A DNA stretch of 34,355 nucleotides, taken from IMG/VR virus record IMGVR_UViG_3300044634_001654, positions 1 through 34,355 of that record; one strand, 5' to 3'. The position numbers and the translations under genes were made by a program. The notes under the pieces are model-generated. The model saw nothing but the letters and a program-made list of their open reading frames with translations. It did no database searches and had not been told where the DNA came from. Shown piece after piece: positions 1-16,656 of the stretch. Origin of the DNA: a virus. Numbering within the stretch: the stretch's first letter is position 1; each line of letters starts with the position of its first letter.

Positions 1-1428
1 TTCTTTATTCAATCGTTTTTCAGCACGGTCTAATCCAGCAGCACGCATTGAAAATTTGTGGTGTGCTTTGTTTGCAGTTTTTGGATCATTGTCTAGATAG
101 GCTTTGCCAGTGATGGTAGATTGTTTATCTTGGTCTTTATCCGCTTTTTTAGCGTAAGAATAAACTGTGTCTTTGTTCAATTCAGAAAGATTAGCCTCCG
201 CCACACCTTGCTTCTTAGGTTCTAGAGCACGTTTCTCGTTAGCAGCTTTTCTGGCTTCTTCTTCTTCACGTTGCTTTCTTGCTTTTTGAAGAGCTAGTTG
301 AAGTCTTGCTGCAGCCGATCTAACTTCAATAATAGGATTACCACTCATTTCAACCGAGTCACCTACATATTGACCACGCTTATTATTAGCATAAGACTTA
401 GCCATAGCATCATTTTGATTTTTCATCTGTTGCTCAGGTGTAGATGGCTTGATTGGTTGAGGTTTAAATTTAGGTTTAGCAGCAGCACGTGCTGAAAGCA
501 TCTTTTCAGTTTCAGCTTTACGCCCTGCAGAAGTTCTTGTGTCGATTTTTGCTTGAGCATGTTCTGGTTTGCCTTTGTTGTAAGCAGCCAATGTTTTGCT
601 CATATCAATCTCATCAACTTGCTCAACTTCTTCATCATACTGACGGCCAACAAACTTCTGGATCGAAGTCAGTACGTCAGACTTCTCCACTGATTCCATC
701 TTCTCTGGGCTGATAGTTTTGCGGTGAGCTCTAACTTTACGAGTTACTGGCTTACCCTCTGCATTAACAGAGTTAACTAATTTAAAGTCAGAAGATACTG
801 CAACACCTTCTGACATGATATCTTTGAGACTCTTCATTTGTTTTCCTTCTTGTACTGACTTCCATCCGCCACCCTTGCCTTTGTACCACTTGGCAGCCCA
901 TCCATTTGCATAAGCAGATGGGTAGACATCAAACTTAGATCTGGCCAGTGACTTAGCTCTTGCCCAAAGACCTGGATTTGTAGGGACGTTCTTTTCTTCT
1001 AGGTATTCTTCTGAGTGCATATTGATATAAAAGTTAGCTTGCTTTTTATCCAAAGTAGTTGCATTATTTCTGTTTTTCAATGCTCTGACTTTTTCCAATG
1101 TTATTGGTCCATTTATCTTGGCCTTAAGCGTACCCGGAGAACCTCTCTTGCTGTGACTTTTTTTAATCAGTTCTGATGTACTGACTTCTTCTGTAGCAAC
1201 ATTAATTGGTTTACCACCCTTGCCAGATCTATCAGCAACAGGATCTTCTCTTCTTTTTCTACGTGCAGCAGCAGCCCTGTCTTCTTTATCCATTGACTGA
1301 GCCTTTGCAAGTGGCAAACATTTAGGTTTTCCTTCACCGTCTTCCCTAGCACAGTCACCTTTAATGTTTCCTTTGGTATCCATTCGGACCCATTTTTGAC
1401 TGAACCACTTGCGCAGATCTTCGTTCAT
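1..1428 (-). CDS. Large basic phage protein with DUF5872-like module, C-terminus beyond window
   Basis: The frame is open for 476 codons from an ATG at 1428 down to base 1, so the 3' end is missing. The N-terminus (MNEDLRKWFSQKW...) is followed by a Cys-containing segment (GDCAREDGEGKPKC) and an RRKRRED basic patch. At about residues 140-185 there is a SAYANGWAAKWYKGKGGGW module that I recall from many phage and giant-virus proteins (DUF5872-like). An internal Met at 837 opens MKSLKDIMSEG, which resembles a capsid-targeting/gp21 cleavage peptide. The rest is Lys/Ala/Gln-rich with probable coiled coil. Its start overlaps the upstream stop as TAATG, so translation is likely coupled. Function unknown; a late or structural role is inferred only from context. 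Confidence 0.75.
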   Translation of the reverse strand, partial: MNEDLRKWFSQKWVRMDTKGNIKGDCAREDGEGKPKCLPLAKAQSMDKEDRAAAARRKRREDPVADRSGKGGKPINVATEEVSTSELIKKSHSKRGSPGTLKAKINGPITLEKVRALKNRNNATTLDKKQANFYINMHSEEYLEEKNVPTNPGLWARAKSLARSKFDVYPSAYANGWAAKWYKGKGGGWKSVQEGKQMKSLKDIMSEGVAVSSDFKLVNSVNAEGKPVTRKVRAHRKTISPEKMESVEKSDVLTSIQKFVGRQYDEEVEQVDEIDMSKTLAAYNKGKPEHAQAKIDTRTSAGRKAETEKMLSARAAAKPKFKPQPIKPSTPEQQMKNQNDAMAKSYANNKRGQYVGDSVEMSGNPIIEVRSAAARLQLALQKARKQREEEEARKAANEKRALEPKKQGVAEANLSELNKDTVYSYAKKADKDQDKQSTITGKAYLDNDPKTANKAHHKFSMRAAGLDRAEKRLNKE

Positions 1429-2672: not shown

Positions 2673-2939
2673 TTACCAAGCCTTACAAGACCAGTATCTT
2701 GCTTTTGTTTTTGGACCAGGATCATCACAATTATGTCTTGCTCTGAAACTTCTACGACGAGCAGGAATATTCTTCTTGATAGTCATATTCTTATCGCCAA
2801 AGTTTACTTTGACCACATTGCCTGTCTCATTCTTAACAAAAACTTTTGATTTCTTAACATCTCCGGCCATTGGCTTATTAAGCTGAACTGAGCGTCCTTG
2901 ATATTCTGCTTCAGAAATAAACTGTAAGAAACTTAGCAT
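2673..2939 (-). CDS. DUF6321-like small conserved phage protein with capsid-targeting-like N-terminus
   Basis: This 88-aa protein has the block KPMAGDVKKSKVFVKNETG, then KVNFGDKNMTIKK, and the end RARHNCDDPGPKTKARYWSC. I recall that block as conserved in T4-like cyanophage and pelagiphage small proteins (DUF6321). The two Cys near the C-terminus are typical. The N-terminus MLSFLQFISE|AEYQG resembles the T4 internal-protein capsid-targeting sequence, with a gp21-like site ISE|A. It overlaps the end of the 547-aa gene by 7 nt. Function unknown; virion packaging is inferred. Confidence 0.8.
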   Translation of the reverse strand: MLSFLQFISEAEYQGRSVQLNKPMAGDVKKSKVFVKNETGNVVKVNFGDKNMTIKKNIPARRRSFRARHNCDDPGPKTKARYWSCKAW

Positions 2940-4576
2940 GGAGTGTTCGCCTTCCTTTTTGCTCTCATCATTCTGGCAAAAGCTTCAACAGCTTCACCAG
3001 GTGTATCCTTCTTGTATTTATTGGTCAGTTTATCTGTACCTTCAAACCCTGCGCCAATCTCTTCTTCGACAGAAGGATGTAGTGCAAATCCACCTTGCAT
3101 TGTAATTCCAAGATCCTTTGCAGTGTAAACACCACTATATCCAGAGGCACGGTCTACGATGAAACTCTCAGAAAGAGGAGTACCATCCTCCAATTCAACA
3201 TGATTGACAAGTCCCATCTGTTGACGGGCTACTTTTGCAGCTGCTGATTGTCTCTGTTGTCTAATCTGACTAAGTGTTTTAGGAGCAGGCTCAAGATTCT
3301 TTTGCATTTGTTGAGTTCTTACTCTACTTGGTTCAGGAATAATAATAGAAGACTGTGTAGCTGGCTGTGAAACTGGCTCAGCAGCAGGTTGAGGAGTAGC
3401 AACAGGCTGCTGTGTAGATTTTGCAGCAGCTGCTTGCTTTTGTTGTCTGAAACTAGAAGTAGCCTGTGCAGAAGGAGCAGTAGGTGTCTTAATGTTTTTC
3501 TTTATCTGACTTAAGCGCTGAGCAAAGTTGGATGGTGAAGTGTATGAATTTGCAGTCTGTTGCTGCGCAGCTGGTGTTGACTGCTGCTTCGGAGCACTTT
3601 GTGTTTGTTGTTTGGGTGCAGGTGTACTGCTCACAGAACTAGGTTTAGGACTAGAAGGAGTTGCAGGCTTTTGCTGCATCTGCTTTGTCTTCAAAAGAGC
3701 TTGCTTTGTTCTTTCTTTGGACTGAATCAAAGATTGTTGATTCATCTTGTCAGAGTATTTGTCTGACTTGTCTTTTTTCTTCTTATCAGGATCAACCTTA
3801 CCGAGTCCTGAAAGTTTCTTGATACCATAAGCAGCTAAAGTTCCTACATCAAAAGCCAAATTTTCTGGTTTGGATAATGCGTGAGCGACAAGTCCACCTG
3901 CAGCAACGGTTTTAGCTGCCAATCTAATTGGAGCTGTTACAGCTGAAAGTATCTTACCTTCATACATCGAGAACATTGCATTAAGGTCTTCACTTGATAC
4001 TTTCTCACCTAGTAACTTACTGTAAATTACTGGTTGATATCCCTGTGTAAGGTTTTGAACATTGCCGTAAACACCCTTAGTAGACTTATGAGTTCTTACT
4101 GCATTGAGTCTTTTCATCTCACCAGCTTTGACTCTAGGCATTAGTCTTGTTGCAATTGCTTTGATGTTTTTGGTTCTAGGTTCTATCTGTCTGTCAATAT
4201 TCATCTTCTGTGCAGGAGACAAGTTATTATAATTAGCACCTCTTGCACCTGCGGCTCTCTTTCTCAACATAGTCTTAGCCATACGCATTGCACGGCGCAT
4301 TAGTTGATCTTGAGTTGCTAGTCTTGTCTTTTTTATATTTCGAGCGCGAGTAATTCTTGGTTTACTACGCTTCATCTGCAACGCTCTCTTGCGTCTTTGC
4401 ATGAGGGACACAACTCGTTCAATTAGAGTTTCTTCGGATTGAACCCCATTCTTCTCTACTTCTTTTGGATTCAACTCAATCTTGTCTAATGGGTTACCAG
4501 TAGCCAAAGCAAGTCCTTTTTTTGCACGGACTGCAATCACGGCAGGAGAGGTGGACTGTTCTTGTTCTTTTGTCAT
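2933..4576 (-). CDS. Large basic protein with Gln/Pro/Ala/Ser-rich linker, probable virion protein
   Basis: 547 aa. Residues ~60-180 are an Arg/Lys/Met-rich helical region (RRKRALQMKRSKPRITRAR; SPAQKMNIDRQIEP) that I recall in marine T4-like phage proteins. Residues ~290-450 form a low-complexity Gln/Pro/Ser/Ala linker. The C-terminal ~90 residues look folded (VDRASGYSGVYTAKDLGITM). No enzymatic motif is visible. The TATAAATA late promoter lies 34 nt upstream. No Shine-Dalgarno sequence precedes the ATG, which is odd because most neighbours have one. A structural or head-internal role is inferred. Confidence 0.72.
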   Translation of the reverse strand: MTKEQEQSTSPAVIAVRAKKGLALATGNPLDKIELNPKEVEKNGVQSEETLIERVVSLMQRRKRALQMKRSKPRITRARNIKKTRLATQDQLMRRAMRMAKTMLRKRAAGARGANYNNLSPAQKMNIDRQIEPRTKNIKAIATRLMPRVKAGEMKRLNAVRTHKSTKGVYGNVQNLTQGYQPVIYSKLLGEKVSSEDLNAMFSMYEGKILSAVTAPIRLAAKTVAAGGLVAHALSKPENLAFDVGTLAAYGIKKLSGLGKVDPDKKKKDKSDKYSDKMNQQSLIQSKERTKQALLKTKQMQQKPATPSSPKPSSVSSTPAPKQQTQSAPKQQSTPAAQQQTANSYTSPSNFAQRLSQIKKNIKTPTAPSAQATSSFRQQKQAAAAKSTQQPVATPQPAAEPVSQPATQSSIIIPEPSRVRTQQMQKNLEPAPKTLSQIRQQRQSAAAKVARQQMGLVNHVELEDGTPLSESFIVDRASGYSGVYTAKDLGITMQGGFALHPSVEEEIGAGFEGTDKLTNKYKKDTPGEAVEAFARMMRAKRKANTPC

Positions 4577-4609
4577 ATTTGGCTAGGAGTTGGCAGGTAG
4601 ATGATTAAC

Positions 4610-4617
4610 TATTTATA
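4610..4617 (-). promoter_or_regulatory. T4-type late promoter TATAAATA
   Basis: An exact TATAAATA on the minus strand ends 34 nt upstream of the 547-aa gene, with no -35 box at the right distance. This is the T4 gp55/gp33-dependent late promoter motif. It would transcribe the block from 4576 down to base 1. Confidence 0.8.
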
Positions 4618-4620
4618 ATA

Positions 4621-5274
4621 TTAATCGACAGCAAATATCTTATCAGATCCTACAGTAAGTCTGTGAGTATATCCAAACTGACTAAGCAATGCCTCAGTCT
4701 CACCATTTGTGGTCTCTAATGATATTACTGGTCTGAATCTTTCAATTGTATCCATTGCACCCAGAATAACATTAGGTTCATACCCCTCACAATCTAGTTG
4801 AATTAGATCGCAGTGATCCAAAGCTAGTTGATCTATTGTAAATGTTGGTACAAATGATTGCTTTGCTGTGTATTTGTTGGGATCATCTCCAACAGTATGG
4901 CATCCTACATTACCTTCATTACCATTATATACATGAAGAAGTTTATTTGTCTCACCAAGTGCAGCATTAAACTTGAATATGTTTGGTACTTGGCAATTGT
5001 TGACAAGGCAATGGAAGTTTAACGGATCAGGTTCAAACGTATATACTCTTGAAAAGTATTGTGAGAATAACATTGGGTAAAGACCACAGTTGCCACCTGC
5101 TTGAACAACAACATCAAACTTTTTACAGAATTTAAGATATCCGTCTTTATGAGAGTTTACCCACTCTGCACTAGGACCGTCCCATGCTCCAGTATCTGTC
5201 TTTGGCCACATCCAATGCGAAACACCATCTACACTTTCTTCTCTCACTCTCACCTTATCATTAAATAATTTCAT
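4621..5274 (-). CDS. FkbM-family SAM-dependent methyltransferase
   Basis: 217 aa, close to the usual core length. The Rossmann motif I region reads FDVVVQAGGNCGLYPMLFS, motif II is YTFEPDPLN, and the later LIQLDCEGYEPNVILGAMD is the classic FkbM D-x-E-G-x-E signature. FkbM enzymes O-methylate sugars or small molecules; the phage substrate is unknown. The start overlaps the preceding stop region, and the ribosome site AAAGGAT lies in the last codons of the upstream gene, so it is the last member of the late operon 8022-4621. It has no capsid-targeting-like N-terminus, unlike the three genes before it. Confidence 0.88.
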   Translation of the reverse strand: MKLFNDKVRVREESVDGVSHWMWPKTDTGAWDGPSAEWVNSHKDGYLKFCKKFDVVVQAGGNCGLYPMLFSQYFSRVYTFEPDPLNFHCLVNNCQVPNIFKFNAALGETNKLLHVYNGNEGNVGCHTVGDDPNKYTAKQSFVPTFTIDQLALDHCDLIQLDCEGYEPNVILGAMDTIERFRPVISLETTNGETEALLSQFGYTHRLTVGSDKIFAVD

Positions 5275-5275
5275 A

Positions 5276-5887
5276 TTAATCCTTTACATTCATCCCTTTA
5301 CGGACATCGTTATACAATTGTTTTGCGTGAACTTCTTTTGTACCACCAGGAAGTCCTTCTTTGAACTTACCGTAGTTACCAGTAGTGGCATGCTCTCTCA
5401 TCTTAGATGCAGACATTCCTTCAACACCTTCTGCATCCGGGTCTCTTGCACCAGCCGATACAACTGATATCTTCTTGAAGTCAAAGTGACCATGACTACC
5501 AGTTTGACCATTGTACTGATGCAGCTTATCTTTATATTCTTTTACTCTATCAGATCCAGCAACCATCACAAGATGCTCTGTTCCGCTCTTGTGTAGCTCG
5601 GATGCCTGATGCAAGAATGTTGGATGCTCTTTACTTGAAGATTTAACAGTTGTACCAGGAAACAAGTTCTTTGCATGTGTTACCTTTGCTTCTGGACTCA
5701 AAGGATTCTTCTTGGCATCTTGGCTATGGCTAAGAACAACAACATGATTACCATTATGTTTATCTGCAACTTCCTTCACCTTGTTTACAAGCTTCTCATG
5801 ACCAGCAGTTGGCGGATTCATTCTTCCGAATGCCATTACAGTAGTCTTGAGTTTTTCTTCTGCGAGAAATTGATTAAACGATATCAT
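5276..5887 (-). CDS. HIGH-motif nucleotidyltransferase (NMN adenylyltransferase / cytidylyltransferase-like) with capsid-targeting-like leader
   Basis: 203 aa. Residues 18-30 read MAFGRMNPPTAGH, the T/HxGH nucleotide-binding motif, and residues 158-164 read MSASKMR, equivalent to the ISSTxxR motif. VAGSDRV (109-115) is the central motif of the fold. These enzymes transfer AMP or CMP to a phosphorylated acceptor such as NMN or phosphopantetheine; the acceptor here cannot be read. The first ten residues MISFNQFLAE match the style of T4 capsid-targeting peptides and a possible gp21 cut LAE|E. It starts 3 nt after the ligase-like gene, in the same late operon. Confidence 0.85.
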   Translation of the reverse strand: MISFNQFLAEEKLKTTVMAFGRMNPPTAGHEKLVNKVKEVADKHNGNHVVVLSHSQDAKKNPLSPEAKVTHAKNLFPGTTVKSSSKEHPTFLHQASELHKSGTEHLVMVAGSDRVKEYKDKLHQYNGQTGSHGHFDFKKISVVSAGARDPDAEGVEGMSASKMREHATTGNYGKFKEGLPGGTKEVHAKQLYNDVRKGMNVKD

Positions 5888-5890
5888 TAG

Positions 5891-7051
5891 TTACCTTAGA
5901 AAGTTTTGTCTGCTGAATTCTTCTCTATCAACAATCTTTGTTGGTCTATTATTTACAACAGCAACAAACCCTTCTCCTTTGGTTTGAGTACCTTTGATAG
6001 ATGTCTCAAACTTCTGAGCAGGTGAGAGAGCTTCATTGTGAACATTCTTTGCAGCTTGCAAGTGATGATGAACCTGTAGAACCTTGTCAATAGAATCTGA
6101 ATTGGCTCTAACATGACTGAGTTGAGTATTCATTGCATTGGTCTTTGCCTCAATCGTCTTTGGCATTTTGACTTTTTTGATCTCTTTCTCATGTGCCTCT
6201 TTGACATGGGAATAGAAGTCATGAGCGTTTGGAGTAGTACCTTCTCTTACTGTTCTGTTAATATATGTCTTTAGATGTTCAGTATGAGGTTCAACCTTTT
6301 TATACTCAGCTGGCTTGATTGTTCTTGCAACCCTGTCAGCTTGAGCCATGTGTTCTTTAAAGTCGGCTTGTTTTGTTGTTGGGTAGTGAACCTTGCTCAT
6401 ATCTACACCAACGTCAATAGCATGAACATCTGAATGTTGTTTGAATTTAGATAGATCAGGAGTGTAGTTGGCCTTCATCGATGTTATATCTTTACCATCG
6501 TAACCAGTATGAACAGCAACTCCAAGACTAGATGCAGCAAGCTTTTTACCCTCATCAGAATGTTGGTGAGCAGTATATGTGATTGTATTAGGTTTGAAAT
6601 TTAGTTTGTTACCAGCTCTCTCTACACTACTAGCATGATGCATCAAGTCACCTTGAAATACACCAGACTTAGGTGTAATTTTAGGAAGATGATCTAATGC
6701 TTTCTTGAGATTAGAAACTAAACCAGGTGCATGACCGTGGTTGTTCTCAATGTCTTCGTGAGTGTAGTTGATCTTTGGTTCTTTGTTAAATGCAGACTTG
6801 GTCGATACAAAGAACTGGCCAGTAGCAGGGTGGTGGCCAAACACGATACTAGGGCTTCCATCATACTTCTCAGTAATAGAAGCACCACCCTTCTGACCTG
6901 TCAGGGTTTTGTGAACAGCGTTCAACGTATTAGTTGCATGTTTGTACCCAGCAGCACCAGCATTAACAATGTGGTCTTCTGCATGCTCAAGATGCATGAG
7001 TTTTTCTTCATTGGTAGCGGACTCTGCTAATAGTGCGAAGATGTGACGCAT
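5891..7051 (-). CDS. Ligase-like covalent nucleotidyltransferase (DUF6267-type)
   Basis: 386 aa. Residues 60-70 read TEKYDGSPSIV, a KxDG nucleotidyltransferase motif I with K62 as the candidate adenylylated lysine. VFQGDLM (131-137) resembles motif III, EGFVAV (360-365) motif IV, and K372 in PTKIVD motif V. I recall this family as DUF6267 in T4-like phages, annotated unknown. The N-terminus MRHIFALLAE|SATNEE is a possible capsid-targeting/gp21 site. A His-rich basic middle (~220-350) separates motifs III and IV. ATG overlaps the stop of the preceding gene by one base. DNA or RNA end joining is inferred, not shown. Confidence 0.75.
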   Translation of the reverse strand: MRHIFALLAESATNEEKLMHLEHAEDHIVNAGAAGYKHATNTLNAVHKTLTGQKGGASITEKYDGSPSIVFGHHPATGQFFVSTKSAFNKEPKINYTHEDIENNHGHAPGLVSNLKKALDHLPKITPKSGVFQGDLMHHASSVERAGNKLNFKPNTITYTAHQHSDEGKKLAASSLGVAVHTGYDGKDITSMKANYTPDLSKFKQHSDVHAIDVGVDMSKVHYPTTKQADFKEHMAQADRVARTIKPAEYKKVEPHTEHLKTYINRTVREGTTPNAHDFYSHVKEAHEKEIKKVKMPKTIEAKTNAMNTQLSHVRANSDSIDKVLQVHHHLQAAKNVHNEALSPAQKFETSIKGTQTKGEGFVAVVNNRPTKIVDREEFSRQNFLR

Positions 7052-8022
7052 TACTTTGTATGTCCAAGTGTCTTTTTGAATTCGTGCATGTGATCATCAG
7101 TATCAAGATTAACATGACTAGGTGTCAGACCGGCCTTACCTGATGGTTGAAACATGACTGTTCTATGCATTGGATTAGATGTCTTTTGACGAACTGTCCA
7201 CTTTCCTGTTCCAGACATTCTTGGAAGACCGTGGCCAGTTACATCTTTATGACCAACTCTGTAAGTGCCATGACCTTCTCCAACTTGCAAAACCTGAACT
7301 CCGTGATCTTTCAAGTATGCTTCGGCCGGGTGTAAATTTTCGTGAGACATAACAACGTTTTGAGCTTTACCACTCGCAGTAGCTTTAACTTGACCTTTTT
7401 TGCTTGGATTGTGATGAGAATTCAAATGATCAATAATTCCAGCCTTTTCAATTTCTTTAGCGTACTGAGGTCTATTCTGTCTTGATTTTTCTGGAATATG
7501 CCATCCACCTTTTTCTGAATCATGGTGGATAGTTAGTTGACCAAACGCTGCTGATGTTCCAAGTTTTACTTCGCCTGAGTGAACAGCACCAACAATAGAT
7601 CCTTGGTGAACTTCTTTTTTCTTTTTATTGAGAATAGGGACATCAGTACCAGCTGTAGATCCAGCAGGTTTATGTCCTGCAGGAACTAATCCGTGTTGCT
7701 TGAACCGTTCGAATGTCTGTGTCTCGTACTGGTGACCCTTATTCTCAGCAGTAGTACCAGGCTTATTTAATTTATTAACTGGAACTGTTGTTTTTTGTCT
7801 CGATCCAACTTTTGAAACGGTGACAGAGTGTTTACCGTTTTCAACAGAATGAGAATGAAGAACAACAGACTCACCTGAATCAGCTAGCGTATGTGTTCCT
7901 TGTTTGGAGTGCTTCTCACCACCAGGCAAGTAAGGAGTTACGTATTTCTTGACATGCCTAGCTGCGTCCATTCCAGATGCAGAAATCACAGCTTCAGCTA
8001 TAAATTGGGTAAATGTTTTCAT
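7051..8022 (-). CDS. PD-(D/E)xK nuclease-like protein with strong capsid-targeting-like N-terminus
   Basis: 323 aa. The N-terminus MKTFTQFIAE|AVISAS is nearly the T4 internal-protein targeting decapeptide (MKTYQEFIAE|A as I recall). Residues ~92-165 hold E100 in GHQYETQTFERF, D127 in TAGTDVPIL and E151-V-K153 in GEVKLGTSAAFGQ, the spacing of a PD-(D/E)xK active site. The C-terminal half is His/Lys-rich and basic, suiting nucleic-acid binding. It is the first gene after the late promoter at 8046 with a good ribosome site (CGGAGCTAAG). Nuclease activity is inferred. Confidence 0.72.
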   Translation of the reverse strand: MKTFTQFIAEAVISASGMDAARHVKKYVTPYLPGGEKHSKQGTHTLADSGESVVLHSHSVENGKHSVTVSKVGSRQKTTVPVNKLNKPGTTAENKGHQYETQTFERFKQHGLVPAGHKPAGSTAGTDVPILNKKKKEVHQGSIVGAVHSGEVKLGTSAAFGQLTIHHDSEKGGWHIPEKSRQNRPQYAKEIEKAGIIDHLNSHHNPSKKGQVKATASGKAQNVVMSHENLHPAEAYLKDHGVQVLQVGEGHGTYRVGHKDVTGHGLPRMSGTGKWTVRQKTSNPMHRTVMFQPSGKAGLTPSHVNLDTDDHMHEFKKTLGHTK

Positions 8023-8045
8023 CTTAGCTCCGAGGTATTATCTGG

Positions 8046-8053
8046 TATTTATA
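8046..8053 (-). promoter_or_regulatory. T4-type late promoter TATAAATA for the putative packaged-enzyme operon
   Basis: Exact TATAAATA, 23 nt upstream of the ATG at 8022 and immediately 3' of the terminator at 8057-8081. No -35 box. It would drive the four-gene operon 8022-4621 late in infection. Confidence 0.82.
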
Positions 8054-8056
8054 TCA

Positions 8057-8081
8057 CAAAAAAACCCACCGAAGTGGGTTT
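8057..8081 (-). terminator. Intrinsic terminator with UUCG tetraloop
   Basis: On the minus strand the hairpin AAACCCAC-TTCG-GTGGGTTT (8 bp, C(UUCG)G loop) is followed by a run of T. It ends the transcript of the 132-aa gene at 8107-8505 and insulates it from the next late promoter. Confidence 0.9.
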
Positions 8082-8106
8082 ATAATAGCGTGCAATCAAA
8101 TTGATT

Positions 8107-8505
8107 TTATAAATCAAGGCTCAGATGCTTGAGACCAGACGTTGCATGCTTCAATACTTTAGTATGAACTTCTGAAGGTAAGTCAGGATGGGCTTTTTTC
8201 AAATCTCTTTTAATATCTTTTGAAGAGGGATCCATATCATCTTTGTTTTCTGGGTTTGCAGTAAACTTAATAGTATGTCCGTCCATTTTACCATGAAACT
8301 TAATATTACCTGGATCTTCATTGTGGTGAGTCATTGTTAAATGATTTTGACCACTGCTATGAAGAACTCTGTGAGTGATATCACCATCAGCAGAGTAGCG
8401 AACACTACCTGTTTTAGCAGCTTCTTGAATATTTGATCTAAGACCAATAATTTTAGTTTTATCTTCGTGAAGAGAAATGAATTGTGAATATTTTTCGATA
8501 GACAT
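8107..8505 (-). CDS. Small late protein, possible capsid-targeted internal protein
   Basis: 132 aa, no recognised family. The N-terminus MSIEKYSQFISLHEDK is similar in style to the capsid-targeting leaders of its neighbours, and NIQE|AAK (about residues 25-31) would suit a gp21-like protease. The rest is His/Lys/Asp-rich (THHNEDPGNIKFHGKMDGHT). It is a monocistronic late unit: TATAAATA at 8535, ribosome site GGAGTAACT before the ATG, and a strong terminator after the stop. Size and arrangement resemble T4 internal-protein genes. Confidence 0.72.
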   Translation of the reverse strand: MSIEKYSQFISLHEDKTKIIGLRSNIQEAAKTGSVRYSADGDITHRVLHSSGQNHLTMTHHNEDPGNIKFHGKMDGHTIKFTANPENKDDMDPSSKDIKRDLKKAHPDLPSEVHTKVLKHATSGLKHLSLDL

Positions 8506-8534: not shown

Positions 8535-8542
8535 TATTTATA
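8535..8542 (-). promoter_or_regulatory. T4-type late promoter TATAAATA
   Basis: Exact TATAAATA, 30 nt upstream of the ATG at 8505. It overlaps the stop codon of the ClpP-like gene, so early transcripts run through it while late ones start here. Confidence 0.78.
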
Positions 8543-9737: not shown

Positions 9738-11103
9738 CTTTGAATTTACCTTTTTCTGATTTGATTCTTATTCCGGTATCTGACTTGTCGAATACAGGAC
9801 CATCGTCAACAATATCCTGCTGTGCACTTTGTTCCACATCATACAACTTCATTTTAGGTCTGTCAACACCAATTACAAATCTTCTATGTACCCCTGGGTC
9901 GTTGTATCTGTTCTTCAACTGCTTGACCATCATTTGATTGAGGTCTTGTAACTCTTCTGAGCTAATCAACGCAATCATGAAGTCAGCAGTAGCTGGAAGA
10001 CCAAACGACTCACTAGTATCTTCAAGACCAAGATCACTACTTGTAAACCCACTTCTTGTTGTCTGTGTTGCTGTTACAATAGGCACATCAAACTCAACAG
10101 CAAGTCCTCGTAATTCCTCTGCAATAGCTTTAATGTATGTGTATGAGTTAACATTTGCACCGTACTTCAACCTTGAAGAGCTACAGATATTTAGATAGTC
10201 GATGTATACTATATCTGGATGGAAGTTTCTCTTTAACTTCAATTCATTCAGCAAGTGTCTCATGTGACCTGCACCAGCAGAAGCTGTTGGGTATTCTTTA
10301 ATAATTAACTTGCCGTTTGTCTTTTCCTGAACACGTTCAATCTTCTTATCATATGATTCGCGTGGAAGAATAGTCAGCTCATCAAGCGACACATTAAGAA
10401 GGTTGGCATCAATACGTTCTGCAATTCTTTCTTCTGCCATCTCCATTGTAATGTAAAGAACATTCAATCCTGCAGATAGATTAGCAGCTGCACAGTGACA
10501 CATAAACAAAGACTTACCAACACCAGTACCTGCAAGAATTACATTCAGTGTCTTGTTTGGTAGACCACCCTTTGTAATCTTGTTAAGATAATCAAGATCA
10601 AAAGGCACTCTCTTCTCTCTTTTATGATAGAATTCATAACGAGATGCAAAGTCTTCCAAGAAGTCATGTCCAATATGTGAATCAAATGAAACAGCAAGAG
10701 CATCAGATAAGATTTGAGGAATAGCTCCCTTACCGACCTTCTCTTTATCACTATCAAGAATCTGAATCGATTTCATAATAGCGTTATAGATTGCTTTGTC
10801 TTGACAGAACTTCTCAGTCTGATCAACTAGCCAGTCCATACTATTGTTCGGTTGATCCTCAAGCTCGTTAATGAGAACTACAACCTCATTGTAGTAGCTT
10901 GATATCTCTTTATTATCGTCAAGCTCAATAGTAAGAGCTTCCTTATTTGGAAACTTATTGTACTTCTTTACGAATGTGTCTATTCCGTCATACAGAGCCT
11001 TGACAGATCTTTCAACAAAGTACTCACTCTTAAGAAAAGGAATGGCCTTACGGCCATACTCCTCATTCGAAAGAAGGTTCGATAAAATTAGCTTTTCAAT
11101 CAT
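9715..11103 (-). CDS. 41: Replicative DNA helicase gp41 (DnaB family)
   Basis: 462 aa (T4 gp41 is about 475). An N-terminal helical domain is followed by the RecA-like core with Walker A AGTGVGKS (191-198). YITMEMAEERIAERIDAN is the family's post-Walker region, and HPDIVYIDYLNI is Walker B with the DnaB-type D-Y-L. TATQTTRSGF and the RPKMKLYDV C-terminal strand complete it. It unwinds the lagging-strand template 5'-3' within the replisome, with a primase and loader not seen in this window. Its ATG overlaps the uvsX stop (ATGA), matching T4's uvsX-41 order. Confidence 0.96.
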   Translation of the reverse strand: MIEKLILSNLLSNEEYGRKAIPFLKSEYFVERSVKALYDGIDTFVKKYNKFPNKEALTIELDDNKEISSYYNEVVVLINELEDQPNNSMDWLVDQTEKFCQDKAIYNAIMKSIQILDSDKEKVGKGAIPQILSDALAVSFDSHIGHDFLEDFASRYEFYHKREKRVPFDLDYLNKITKGGLPNKTLNVILAGTGVGKSLFMCHCAAANLSAGLNVLYITMEMAEERIAERIDANLLNVSLDELTILPRESYDKKIERVQEKTNGKLIIKEYPTASAGAGHMRHLLNELKLKRNFHPDIVYIDYLNICSSSRLKYGANVNSYTYIKAIAEELRGLAVEFDVPIVTATQTTRSGFTSSDLGLEDTSESFGLPATADFMIALISSEELQDLNQMMVKQLKNRYNDPGVHRRFVIGVDRPKMKLYDVEQSAQQDIVDDGPVFDKSDTGIRIKSEKGKFKDAFNSFS

Positions 11104-13309: not shown

Positions 13310-14236
13310 CTATGCAAAGAATTGTTCTAGTGTTTGTCTACGGTCTTTGATCTGCCAACCAACTGCATCAAGAATCGACTTGATTGGTTCCAAGAATGAT
13401 TTATCAAATTGTCTCTCGTAGTCGACATATGGATGAATATTCAGCACCTTTGGTAGATCACCTGGTGATGATATCACAGAATCACGAGCTGGATTAGGTG
13501 TTCTCAGATAAGCGAACTTGATCTTATCTCCATCACGAATGATGGGATACTTTGTATCTATCTTATGCTCTCTTAACAGTGCATTGTAAATCAATGAACC
13601 CTTGACGTGAATAGGTGTAGACTTACGGTAGATCGATGATGCATCTTGGTACTTCTTCATATCTCTCACACTTCTTGGAAATGCAATCTCCTCAAAAGGC
13701 AGGGTCATAAACTCAGTCTTAAAGTCAGTGATGAATTTGATAGCTGCTTGCTCATCCTGATTCATAATTACCTCGAGAGCCTTCTTAATGTTCTTTCTAC
13801 AAGCTGCTGGTGTAGAAGAACGAACCGCTTCAATCCCTTGCATCTTCAACTTAGGTTCGCTATACTCGACTCCTTCGTTGTTGTACACGTTCAAGATGTA
13901 ATGCTTCTTACCAGTCCAGATACCTTTGTTGGCAATCGCTTCGCGCTTCATCACCATCTTCTGTTTCATCACCTGCATGTATTCACCAAGACTGGCAAAC
14001 GTATCATCAATGAATGGTTGTAGTTTCTTTTCACAAACGTTATCAAGAAACTTTACTATCTTGTGGATGTCGTGTTGATCGTCTTTGAATACACCGTCGA
14101 CCAATCTTTCAAGTCTAATATACATTGAGTCAGTGTCACATGCGATCACATAATCTTCGTTTTCTGTCTTAAATAGCTTGTTAAGGTATTCGTTGATGTG
14201 TTTCTCCATCCAACGAATTGATAGCTGACCAGACAT
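13310..14236 (-). CDS. 43: DNA polymerase gp43, C-terminal fragment (palm motif C, thumb)
   Basis: 308 aa from the first in-frame ATG. ACDTDSMY (32-39) is polymerase motif C with both catalytic Asp. EAIANKGIWTGKKHYILNVY is the KKRY-like thumb/palm segment. The last residues TLEQFFA form the sliding-clamp binding tail. The frame is open upstream through NVYFRWYQRNLAEGIT to 14308, so the ATG at 14236 is internal to the ancestral gene. GAGGGG, 6 nt upstream of it, could serve as a restart site. It lacks motif B, which is encoded in another frame at 14287-14424. Either made as a separate subunit or joined by ribosomal bypass. Confidence 0.9.
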   Translation of the reverse strand: MSGQLSIRWMEKHINEYLNKLFKTENEDYVIACDTDSMYIRLERLVDGVFKDDQHDIHKIVKFLDNVCEKKLQPFIDDTFASLGEYMQVMKQKMVMKREAIANKGIWTGKKHYILNVYNNEGVEYSEPKLKMQGIEAVRSSTPAACRKNIKKALEVIMNQDEQAAIKFITDFKTEFMTLPFEEIAFPRSVRDMKKYQDASSIYRKSTPIHVKGSLIYNALLREHKIDTKYPIIRDGDKIKFAYLRTPNPARDSVISSPGDLPKVLNIHPYVDYERQFDKSFLEPIKSILDAVGWQIKDRRQTLEQFFA

Positions 14237-14270
14237 TGTAATCCCCTCTGCAAGATTACGTTGATACCAT

Positions 14271-14290
14271 CTGAAGTATACGTTACCTAA
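14271..14290 (-). repeat. Right copy of 20-nt gene-43-derived repeat flanking the homing endonuclease
   Basis: TTAGGTAACGTATACTTCAG (minus strand) matches the copy at 15125-15144 at 17 of 20 positions. Its first five bases TTAGG are exactly the extra bases that put gene 43 out of frame here. Confidence 0.8.
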
Positions 14291-14424
14291 CCAAGAGCGC
14301 CGTAGGCACTATTCAACTGAATTTTTTTTGCCATCTGCATATTATTGCATCTTGCAATCTCGTTGATAGTTTGCCTACGGAGCTCTTGGAGGCCCTCCAT
14401 AGTTAATTGTTTAATATCTTGCAT
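14287..14424 (-). CDS. 43: DNA polymerase gp43, middle fragment carrying motif B (45 aa)
   Basis: ATG at 14424 has a strong ribosome site (AAAGGATATAA) and lies inside the end of the homing endonuclease gene. The peptide ends NMQMAKKIQLNSAYGALG then TAG. KKIQLNSAYG is the family-B polymerase motif B (fingers, dNTP binding), which both large fragments lack. Immediately after GGT-TAG the correct continuation (NVYFRW) is found if five bases are skipped from this GGT to the next GGT. So this is either a separate 45-residue peptide, the start of gp43B made by bypass, or a broken gene. Confidence 0.75.
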   Translation of the reverse strand: MQDIKQLTMEGLQELRRQTINEIARCNNMQMAKKIQLNSAYGALG

Positions 14425-15116
14425 TTATATCCTTTAGCCCTTCCTTTAGAAATGCGCAAGTCGCTTTTTATATTGCCCCACATTGTAACGAATGGGAGGG
14501 TGTGCTGTTCACAAAACAGGCCTAGCCTGTTTGTTGTATATACGTTACCATCTGGTGTTGTTATTTCATAAGTGCCGGATAGTGAGTCGATCATGGTTTC
14601 TCTGTTAGTCTTCCACATCTCAGCAAGTTTGGACTTCTCCTGCATCAATATTGAATGCTCTGGTCTTTTGGACCCAGTATTCTTTTCGACAGCCTTTTTT
14701 AGATTGTCTAATCTTTTTTGTCTGTGTTGCAACACACGTTGCTCATCCTTTGAATACCCATTTGAACGCGACTCTAGATTTCTTCTTACCACTTCAGGAT
14801 TCTTCATAGGATTTTGGTAGATGTGACGATTAGAATTAATATGATCAAACCCACCAATCCCACCTTCCATGAGGTTATAGCATAGCGGGTTCTCTATATT
14901 TTGTTCGACGAGCTCGCGCTCTTTTTGATACATCTCATCTTCATGTTGAAATACAAAAAGAACTTCTTTGATAAAGTTTGATCTACCATAGTACTTGATG
15001 GCCCGTTTGATCGCAAGCCCAGACCCCAAGTAATCATCGTTGGGATTTTCTGTCTTATGGGCTCCAATATAATAACGGTTGTTTTTCAAATTAGTTGTCT
15101 TATAAACAGTGTACAT
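14403..15116 (-). CDS. GIY-YIG homing endonuclease interrupting gene 43
   Basis: 237 aa. The N-terminal domain has VYKTTNLKNNRYYIGAHK, the GIY-YIG variant typical of phage enzymes, then YLGSG, RAIKYYGRSNF and the catalytic-Glu region QKERELV. The C-terminal part contains GNVYTTNRLGLFCEQHTLPF and GRAKGYKCKIL, a DNA-binding repeat-like segment found in Seg/Mob-type enzymes. It cuts DNA to spread itself into related gene 43 alleles. It has its own late promoter at 15151 and ribosome site AGGAGA; both lie in sequence derived from duplicated gene 43. Its 3' end overlaps the restart ATG of the polymerase. Confidence 0.92.
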   Translation of the reverse strand: MYTVYKTTNLKNNRYYIGAHKTENPNDDYLGSGLAIKRAIKYYGRSNFIKEVLFVFQHEDEMYQKERELVEQNIENPLCYNLMEGGIGGFDHINSNRHIYQNPMKNPEVVRRNLESRSNGYSKDEQRVLQHRQKRLDNLKKAVEKNTGSKRPEHSILMQEKSKLAEMWKTNRETMIDSLSGTYEITTPDGNVYTTNRLGLFCEQHTLPFVTMWGNIKSDLRISKGRAKGYKCKILNN

Positions 15117-15124
15117 TAAGTCTC

Positions 15125-15144
15125 CTGAAGTATGTATTACCTAA
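15125..15144 (-). repeat. Left copy of 20-nt gene-43-derived repeat (ALGNTYFRR remnant)
   Basis: TTAGGTAATACATACTTCAG, in the reading frame of gene 43 upstream, would encode LGNTYFR after two stop codons. The native gene has LGNVYFRW at this point, so this is a degenerate duplicate of downstream gene-43 sequence. Its end supplies the Shine-Dalgarno sequence of the endonuclease. Confidence 0.78.
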
Positions 15145-15150
15145 TGCCAC

Positions 15151-15158
15151 TATTTATA
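15151..15158 (-). promoter_or_regulatory. T4-type late promoter TATAAATA for the homing endonuclease
   Basis: Exact TATAAATA, 34 nt upstream of the endonuclease ATG and just after the stop of the polymerase N-terminal fragment. Seg/Mob/Tev genes of T4 are often expressed late in the same way. Confidence 0.75.
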
Positions 15159-15162
15159 TTAT

Positions 15163-16656
15163 TTAACTCCTTCGCACTATTTCCTCTTCAATTAATTCTA
15201 ACTTCTTCTTTGCTTCGATCATACGCTTTTTCCAAACCGTACGGTCGTTGTACATCGTCTCCATCAGTGTAGGTAGAAACCCTACATTGTTCTTACTGAA
15301 TAACGCACCATTAGGACTCATTGTCATGTTCTGATCACTAAGCGTCTTCTCAAAGTCTGAGCCAACTTGTTTATTCAGACATCTCTCAATCGTTACTTCA
15401 TCTACCACACCAATGTAAGTATCAGGGCTAATGTTGTATTGCATGATCAGATGAGGATACAGACTGTTCAAGTCGAACGAGCAAACCCACTTATGTAAGC
15501 CAACCTGAGGATCTTTTACATACCCACCAACAATTGGGCCCATCTCTGTGTCAATTGCTTGCCTCTCTTCAAGATCACCACGCTCGACGTGAGGAACAAC
15601 AATACCTCTATCCATCAGATAATTTGTAATAATGATGTCCCAGATACGAACGGTAGTGAAAGTATCGACGTAGTTGACCTTAGCATCGTATGCAATAGCG
15701 AATACTTGTTCGATGAATTTCAACTTCTCTTCTAGCTTATCAACCAACACAACGTCATGGATGTTATAGTCAACAAACCTTTCGAAGTCCTGCATATAAA
15801 ATTCATGCATCGACTCGTACTCAGAGTAGTCTAGCTTTCTTTCACCAAGCTCGTACTCAGCAATGTGATCGAGCTTGTATGATTCCTGAGGAGTATAAGA
15901 AAACTTCTTGTACAGCGCCATATAGTCAAGGACTGATATCCCGTACACATCGTATATCTTAGGCGATGTTGGATCGTTGCCTACTTGACGTTCTTTAACA
16001 ATTCCCCACGGTGAGAGTTTGTTGGCTTGCTTTGGACCAAGTACGTTGGTAATACGTTTGTACAGATAGGGAATGTCGAAGTACTCAATATTCCAACCAG
16101 TTACGACATCAGGTTTCCATTTGTTTGAGTTCCATGCTTCGAGAAACTTTTCAAGCAAATCACTTTCATTTCTACATTGAACATACACAACATCATCACT
16201 CTTTGGCTTGTATGGTCTTGTTCCAAGAACAATAACCTTGCCTTTCTTACGCATTGATAGTGTAATGATCTCCTTGTCAGCATACTCCATATTAGGAAAC
16301 CCATTGAGAGTGGACGTCTCAATGTCAAGTGATACTACATTGATATCATCGACGTTGTAGTTAACCTCACCTTTGAATAGTCCGTGTATTGCTTGGTATG
16401 TGTATAGATTTGATCCGTAGATTTCAAAACCATCAACATCCGAGTAGTTAGCCATAAAGTCTCTTGACTCCTTGACTCCTTCAAAGTCTACTTTATCAAC
16501 GTATTTGTCATCTAGTGTTTTATATTGTGATTTATTTTTAGTTTTAACAAACAGATACGGACGATACACATCACGATACTCAAATCGTTTGCCATCCTCA
16601 TATCCTCTCACATATACTTTATCACCATAAACAAATACATTTGTATAAAACTTCAT
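15163..16656 (-). CDS. 43: DNA polymerase gp43, N-terminal fragment (exonuclease and motif A)
   Basis: 497 aa versus ~900 for T4 gp43. Exo I is DIET (111-114), Exo II NIEYFD (189-194) and Exo III YNIHD (297-301). Polymerase motif A is SFDLNSLYPHLI (393-404). The frame ends at EEEIVRRS-TAA, just before the fingers helix that carries motif B. Alone it could keep 3'-5' exonuclease activity but not polymerise. Continuations lie at 14287-14424 and 13310-14284. Split gp43A/gp43B are known in some Aeromonas T4-like phages. Ribosome site GAGGTGAT precedes the ATG. Confidence 0.95.
   Translation of the reverse strand: MKFYTNVFVYGDKVYVRGYEDGKRFEYRDVYRPYLFVKTKNKSQYKTLDDKYVDKVDFEGVKESRDFMANYSDVDGFEIYGSNLYTYQAIHGLFKGEVNYNVDDINVVSLDIETSTLNGFPNMEYADKEIITLSMRKKGKVIVLGTRPYKPKSDDVVYVQCRNESDLLEKFLEAWNSNKWKPDVVTGWNIEYFDIPYLYKRITNVLGPKQANKLSPWGIVKERQVGNDPTSPKIYDVYGISVLDYMALYKKFSYTPQESYKLDHIAEYELGERKLDYSEYESMHEFYMQDFERFVDYNIHDVVLVDKLEEKLKFIEQVFAIAYDAKVNYVDTFTTVRIWDIIITNYLMDRGIVVPHVERGDLEERQAIDTEMGPIVGGYVKDPQVGLHKWVCSFDLNSLYPHLIMQYNISPDTYIGVVDEVTIERCLNKQVGSDFEKTLSDQNMTMSPNGALFSKNNVGFLPTLMETMYNDRTVWKKRMIEAKKKLELIEEEIVRRS

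Follow-up and report, generated by a model that had tools for sequence, protein, structure and literature searches.

In this study, a 34,355-base linear virus fragment from IMG/VR (record IMGVR_UViG_3300044634_001654; hereafter, the window) was analyzed for a gene cassette at positions 2673–8505 whose proteins begin with short leaders resembling the capsid-targeting sequence of the T4 internal proteins. The replication genes of the window (gp41 helicase, UvsX, and gp43) are T4-like, and its DNA-level similarity to marine T4-like phages is weak. Five leader-bearing open reading frames (ORFs) had been named in the original prediction, and all were present with the N-termini as given, all on the minus strand. 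They encode a 132-aa protein (8107–8505; leader 8464–8505, MSIEKYSQFISLHE/D, the slash marking the proposed cut); a 323-aa nuclease-like (unproved) protein (7051–8022; leader 7993–8022, MKTFTQFIAE/A); a 386-aa ligase-like protein of the DUF6267 family, PF19782 (5891–7051; leader 7022–7051, MRHIFALLAE/S); a 203-aa cytidyltransferase-like or NMNAT-like protein (5276–5887; leader 5858–5887, MISFNQFLAE/E); and an 88-aa protein matching phrog_7595 with E = 2.5e-13 (2673–2939; leader 2910–2939, MLSFLQFISE/A). In phage Melnitz, the cytidyltransferase protein has the domain of the 88-aa protein at its C-terminal end.

A four-position leader rule was derived from T4 mutational work, in which residues 4 and 7 serve targeting and residues 8 and 10 serve processing; the propeptides of T4 internal proteins span 10–19 residues (PMC9026906). 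The rule fitted 5 of the 47 window genes. Composition shuffles gave a mean of 0.11, and none of 20,000 reached five; among internal methionine contexts of the window, 2 of 253 fitted. Four of the predicted minus-strand leaders were exact fits. When the other window genes were searched for the same leader, the only further match was UvsX, whose start (MSFLKSLLKE) fits the loose rule, probably by chance. Because UvsX fits, the rule alone is not proof of targeting. UvsX was rejected as cargo: in the window, S-SZBM1, HTVC008M, and Melnitz, its start fits the loose rule only and not the tight aromatic form.

The T4 leader given in the original prediction was correct, as ipII and ipIII of NC_000866 both begin MKTYQEFIAEA. 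The 3335 start codons of this genome were used as a control, with the tight rule requiring F or Y at positions 4 and 7. The tight rule picked ipII, ipIII, gp61.1 (MKTFKEFIKED), and one internal start of uvsW. The looser rule added alt and gp24, both gp21 substrates, amid several unannotated starts. The T4 control confirmed the leader rule. As a side observation, gp61.1 (NC_000866 19130–18966) and the internal uvsW start MLLEFKQFLYEA (NC_000866 114210–114440) could each be an unrecognized T4 internal protein.

The T4 protein ipI (MKTFKEFTSTTT..., with a leader beginning MKTFKEF) was not picked by the rule; therefore, variants with a later cut site exist. This bears on the 132-aa protein, for which the predicted leader held only in part. 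Its leader is out of register, while relatives of the protein (MSIDKYSQYISIHE) conserve the aromatic pair and the phi-x-E site. Since the aromatic pair and L/I-H-E are kept in relatives (loci L009 and L011–L014), the 132-aa protein looks like an ipI-type variant that is cut later.

Relatives were sampled as 80 IMG/VR loci with DUF6267 homologues, plus annotated phages; many sampled loci overlap in descent, and locus counts are not independent events. The DUF6267 homologues gave 67 representatives at 80% identity. Under a permissive rule with a background of 4%, the leader was found on 56 of these 67, ahead of the conserved domain. The tight form, M-x(1,4)-F-x-x-[FY]-[LI]-x-E, was present in 61% of the representatives, compared with 0.06% of internal methionine contexts. 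Among leader-bearing clusters at 70%, position 4 was F in 32 of 35 and position 7 was F or Y in 34 of 35. On a maximum-likelihood DUF6267 tree, the leader label needed three changes; the shuffled mean was 10.4, and none of 500 shuffles was as low. The linker between leader and domain was variable in length. In the structural model, the leader formed a helix of its own with low confidence, and the domain after it had a predicted local distance difference test score (pLDDT) of 93. The conservation of the leader in relatives and its predicted separation from the domain suggested that it acts as an address tag on an enzyme-like domain that is itself conserved.

The tight leader was also carried by other families. 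Of the 2884 ORFs in the sampled loci, 125 had it close to the start, compared with 3 of 7991 internal starts. The carriers included 58 DUF6267 proteins (4 fused to a cytidyltransferase), 17 other cytidyltransferases, 10 members of the family in the slot of the nuclease-like protein, 5 proteins with the 88-aa domain, a HAD family with DxDxT (a cluster of 11), and a P-loop kinase. Homologues of the nuclease-slot protein were mostly leader-bearing, with starts such as MKTFITFLKEA, MRSFKFFLSEG, MIKFKSFLKEQ, and MKSFRAYIVEG.

Homologues of the cytidyltransferase are present in virions of four cyanophages, according to published proteomes: S-SM1 (T4-GC190; PMC3037559), S-SZBM1 (S-SZBM1_140; PMC9146016), S-SCSM1 (ORF91; PMC9602691, in agreement with the GenBank note), and S-CREM2 (gp154; PMC10665884). 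All four bear the same type of leader, their N-termini being MKKFSAFLNEA, MRFRQFIIEA, MKSFLQFLKEA, and MKNFSSFLTEA. In S-SM1, S-SZBM1, and S-SCSM1, the gene occupies the equivalent place after gp41. The passages of these papers on the cytidyltransferase do not mention the leader; no packaging signal is described there, nor is the protein linked to DUF6267. In the S-SZBM1 list of detected proteins, the leaderless DUF6267 neighbor (141) and protein 142 are both absent. A gp21-family protease was found in 9 of 15 related records, including those of HTVC008M, Melnitz, and DLP6.

Several observations weigh against packaging through the leader. Cyanophage DUF6267 proteins lack it: 11 of the 67 representatives are leaderless, of which 10 are of the cyanophage type and begin directly with M[AS]KNTHLEHLED, and, unlike in the cassette, the DUF6267 neighbors in S-SZBM1 and S-SM1 have none. 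SSZBM1_139, SSCSM1_89, and SSCSM1_90 were detected in virions without a leader. Because some leaderless proteins of the block were so detected, the leader is not the sole way into the virion. Genome-wide in S-SZBM1, 1 of 5 motif carriers was detected in the proteome, and the motif thus failed to predict which proteins of this phage are detected in virions; the interpretation therefore draws on conservation within families rather than on individual matches. The leader-bearing SSZBM1_191 and SSZBM1_192 are missing from the same published list. gp21 was not found in the window, as can happen in a fragment.

It could be argued that the N-termini resemble one another by coincidence, as amphipathic helices, or through a translation-start bias, and that the proteins detected in virions are abundant late products present as contaminants. 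The loose fit of UvsX and the absence of SSZBM1_191 and SSZBM1_192 from the published virion list are in line with this, and in two of the studies (PMC10665884 and PMC9602691) the authors raise contamination, stating that co-purification cannot be excluded. However, the same positions and the Glu are held in proteins at 32–64% identity and on unrelated families, the leader on DUF6267 is about 1000 times above background, and the T4 internal proteins are tight-rule matches in T4. Contamination would also have to account for the cytidyltransferase in four independent proteomes. Coincidence with contamination is thus highly improbable.

SSZBM1_191 and SSZBM1_192 (OL473597 122311–123125) were noted separately. 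They are small genes beside a virion structural gene, have perfect leaders (MKSFKSFLSES and MKTFKQYITEA), and are candidate small internal proteins.

The proposed capsid targeting is well supported by the T4 control, by a leader conserved in dozens of divergent phages, by gp21 in 9 of 15 related records, and by the four virion proteomes. The cassette proteins are very likely T4-type internal proteins that are packaged in the head through the leader. Since several enzyme-like proteins bear the leader and one of them has relatives in virions, such phages probably carry a ready-made enzyme kit into the host.

Late-promoter-like sites were located by pattern search. The T4-type site TATAAATA was found on the minus strand ahead of the 132-aa gene (8535–8542), about 24 nucleotides ahead of the 323-aa gene (8046–8053), and ahead of a 547-aa gene (4610–4617). 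In the window as a whole, consensus matching gave eight such putative promoters on the minus strand and none on the plus strand, and a reversed control gave two. In the proposed mechanism, late transcripts would yield the cassette proteins. The N-terminal leader of 10–14 residues, with aromatic or hydrophobic residues at positions 4 and 7, would bind the prohead core and draw the protein in. During maturation, a gp21-type prohead protease would cut the leader after Glu (L or I at 8, E at 10), as the leader sequences suggest. The mature enzymes would then stay among the packaged DNA and exit with it at injection; entry into the host is proposed by analogy with T4 IP1–3, which act in the host and inhibit GmrSD nucleases (PMC12373910).

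The cassette shares with T4 IPI, IPII, IPIII, and Alt a leader with hydrophobic or aromatic residues at 4 and 7, L or I at 8, and E at 10 (MKTFTQFIAE/A compared with MKTYQEFIAE/A). Late-type promoters (putative here), several cargoes per phage, and a gp21-family protease (here in relatives) are further common points. The cargoes differ: those of the cassette are large, enzyme-like, and conserved in marine T4-like phages, whereas those of T4 are small, fast-evolving, and anti-restriction. No sequence similarity between the two was seen beyond the leader.

The remaining genes of the region have no leader. An FkbM-type methyltransferase (4621–5274, minus strand; PF05050, E = 4.9e-14) lies inside the block. 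The basic, low-complexity 547-aa protein (2933–4576, minus strand; phrog_23027) has the position of the virion proteins SSZBM1_139 and SSCSM1_92 in relatives, a correspondence of position and not of sequence. A 476-aa protein (1–1428, minus strand), which extends beyond the window, shares phrog_727 with the virion-detected S-CREM2 gp160. Immediately upstream of the cassette, a leaderless ClpP-like protease (PF00574; 8538–9098, minus strand) also matches ClpP-type head maturation proteases. It was rejected as the leader protease, as it matches Clp/ClpP-type proteins and relatives have a separate gp21-family protease. Further away, gp43 DNA polymerase is in two minus-strand ORFs (15163–16656 and 13310–14236; region 13310–16656), and the ORF between them (14403–15116) is GIY-YIG homing endonuclease-like and has its own TATAAATA site.

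The 386-aa protein matched PF19782 over positions 2–372 of 376 with E = 2.6e-96 (323.7 bits; cut-off 27). No function is stated for this family. The residues K62, D64, G65, E360, G361, V363, and K372 were invariant in 65 sequences. KxDG, EGxV, and Lys are motifs I, IV, and V of the polynucleotide ligase and covalent nucleotidyltransferase superfamily. The six best fold matches of the DUF6267 model in the PDB were all RNA or DNA ligases, with E of 0.2–0.8 and none significant; RNA ligases were also among the first weak viral matches outside the family, again none significant. Comparison by hhalign with T4 Rnl2, Rnl1, and gp30 gave nothing significant, the sole stretch that lined up being EGFVAV with EGYVAV of Rnl1 (E 0.09), and a search for PDB sequence relatives gave unrelated weak matches only. 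The predicted ligase-like character thus stood at the motif level, with invariant KxDG, EGxV, and K; since it matched no known ligase significantly, by fold or by profile, the protein is termed ligase-like and not a ligase.

In the closest relative (L009:9566–11834), the DUF6267 gene is interrupted: its N-terminal part ends at 10063 and is followed by a 223-aa ORF (10106–10777), which looks like an inserted mobile element, and then by the C-terminal part. In the S-PM2 record AJ630128, a DUF6267–cytidyltransferase fusion is in two genes (S-PM2p138/p139; L018:7983–9762). In the later record LN828717, the match to DUF6267 is unbroken, and the split is probably a frameshift in the older sequence.

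The 203-aa protein scored above the cut-off for PF01467 and TIGR00125 and matched phrog_3041 with E = 1.9e-65. Its family conserves GRMNPPTAGH and SASKMR, a HIGH-type motif. The predicted nucleotidyltransferase was confirmed by the Pfam and NCBIfam profiles as a member of the HIGH superfamily; its specificity for nicotinamide mononucleotide (NMN) is annotation only. In the 323-aa protein, D127, E151xK153, and Q162 were invariant or nearly so in ten homologues, residues compatible with a PD-(D/E)XK nuclease. Its model (pLDDT 68) was too poor to use and had no fold match. No PDB sequence relatives were found with the cytidyltransferase or nuclease-slot profile. Near the cytidyltransferase gene of S-CREM2, the virion-detected gp156 (L107:8013–8726) matched NTP_transf_2 with E = 3.4e-4, above the cut-off, and is possibly another packaged nucleotide enzyme.

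Further enzyme-like neighbors were found in relatives. The HAD protein matched a PHROG annotated as polynucleotide kinase (E = 8e-9), and HAD ORFs adjoined DUF6267 in 11 of 16 cases. The P-loop kinase matched another PHROG of the same name (E = 2e-6; HTVC008M copy, 8.5e-8), and its domain shared one ORF with the cytidyltransferase in 11 loci. For 51 homologues, no more than 1.5 kb separated the cytidyltransferase from DUF6267, and in 5 the two were fused. Because ligase-like, kinase-like, HAD, and adenylyltransferase-like proteins keep company, end repair early in infection is favored, and the polynucleotide-kinase-like neighbors strengthen the end-processing role guessed in the original prediction. 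Judged from sequence, nucleic-acid end processing or repair early in infection is the likeliest role of the cargo, and it is put forward tentatively. PADLOC profiles of known defence systems had no match among six cassette proteins.

The grouping of ligase-like, P-loop kinase-like, and HAD phosphatase-like proteins in these relatives recalls the tRNA repair by Pnkp and RNA ligase of T4 and bacterial Pnkp-type end healing and sealing. T4 makes its Pnkp and RNA-ligase set after infection, whereas the set of the cassette would enter together with the DNA. No homology of DUF6267 to the T4 ligases was detectable, and the kinase and HAD genes are absent from this window.

Alternatively, the packaged enzymes may act on nicotinamide adenine dinucleotide (NAD), with the NMNAT-like protein remaking NAD+ against NAD-depleting defences or feeding NAD-dependent enzymes at entry. 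A HIGH-superfamily nucleotidyltransferase is present, and its fusion to a P-loop kinase in 11 loci resembles the architecture of NadR, which joins the same two kinds of domain; salvage of NAD is also a means by which phages counter NADase defences (PMC9503650). The homologue was also called NMNAT by the authors of one proteome (PMC9602691). However, the kinase of the relatives matches Zeta_toxin/AAA_33 and a PHROG annotated as polynucleotide kinase, the constant partner is the ligase-like DUF6267, and the HAD proteins match a polynucleotide-kinase PHROG. The strongest PHROG match of the nucleotidyltransferase is a generic cytidyltransferase, and, in contrast to NadR-type systems, no NAD-salvage partner was seen in the block. 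Action on NAD is judged less probable than end repair and is its main alternative.

The proteins could also be packaged to act inside the particle, in core or scaffold assembly or in ordering the packaged DNA, without entering the host as enzymes and with enzyme folds retained or degenerate. Basic low-complexity proteins with relatives in virions lie next to the block, and T4 IPIII influences head morphogenesis (PMC9026906). Nevertheless, catalytic-type residues are invariant in the cytidyltransferase and in DUF6267 (K62, D64, G65, E360, and K372), and T4 IP1–3 act in the host (PMC12373910). Cyanophages retain DUF6267 without a leader, a pattern suggestive of catalysis rather than structure. 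Action within the particle is therefore unlikely.

The end-repair reading can be extended, more cautiously still, to the whole lineage. It is conceivable that widespread marine T4-like phages use the leader as an interchangeable tag to load the head with an end-healing-and-sealing set, which would repair RNA or DNA against host defence from the moment of DNA entry, before phage expression. As proposed, the set would comprise the ligase-like DUF6267 protein, a polynucleotide kinase-like kinase, a HAD phosphatase, a HIGH-superfamily adenylyltransferase, and the putative nuclease.

A literature search of open-licence papers, a weak test for that reason, found no report that connects capsid-targeting sequences with cyanophages or with other T4-like phages of marine origin; a T4 review names a cyanophage in a reference title only. 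No mention of DUF6267 was found among such papers, with the same weakness. Mechanisms of this kind are known; what appears to be new is the cargo, together with its breadth. A DUF6267 homologue is present in 471 deposited phage records, mostly of cyanophages. If correct, the present interpretation would supply the packaging signal that has been missing for NMNAT-like proteins carried in virions, which several groups have reported without a mechanism. It would also give a simple rule by which candidate injected proteins can be found from sequence, each prediction being a mature N-terminus that could be confirmed in existing raw mass-spectrometry data. The T4 internal-protein system would then extend from a few small anti-restriction proteins of Escherichia coli phages to a conserved enzyme set of marine phages.

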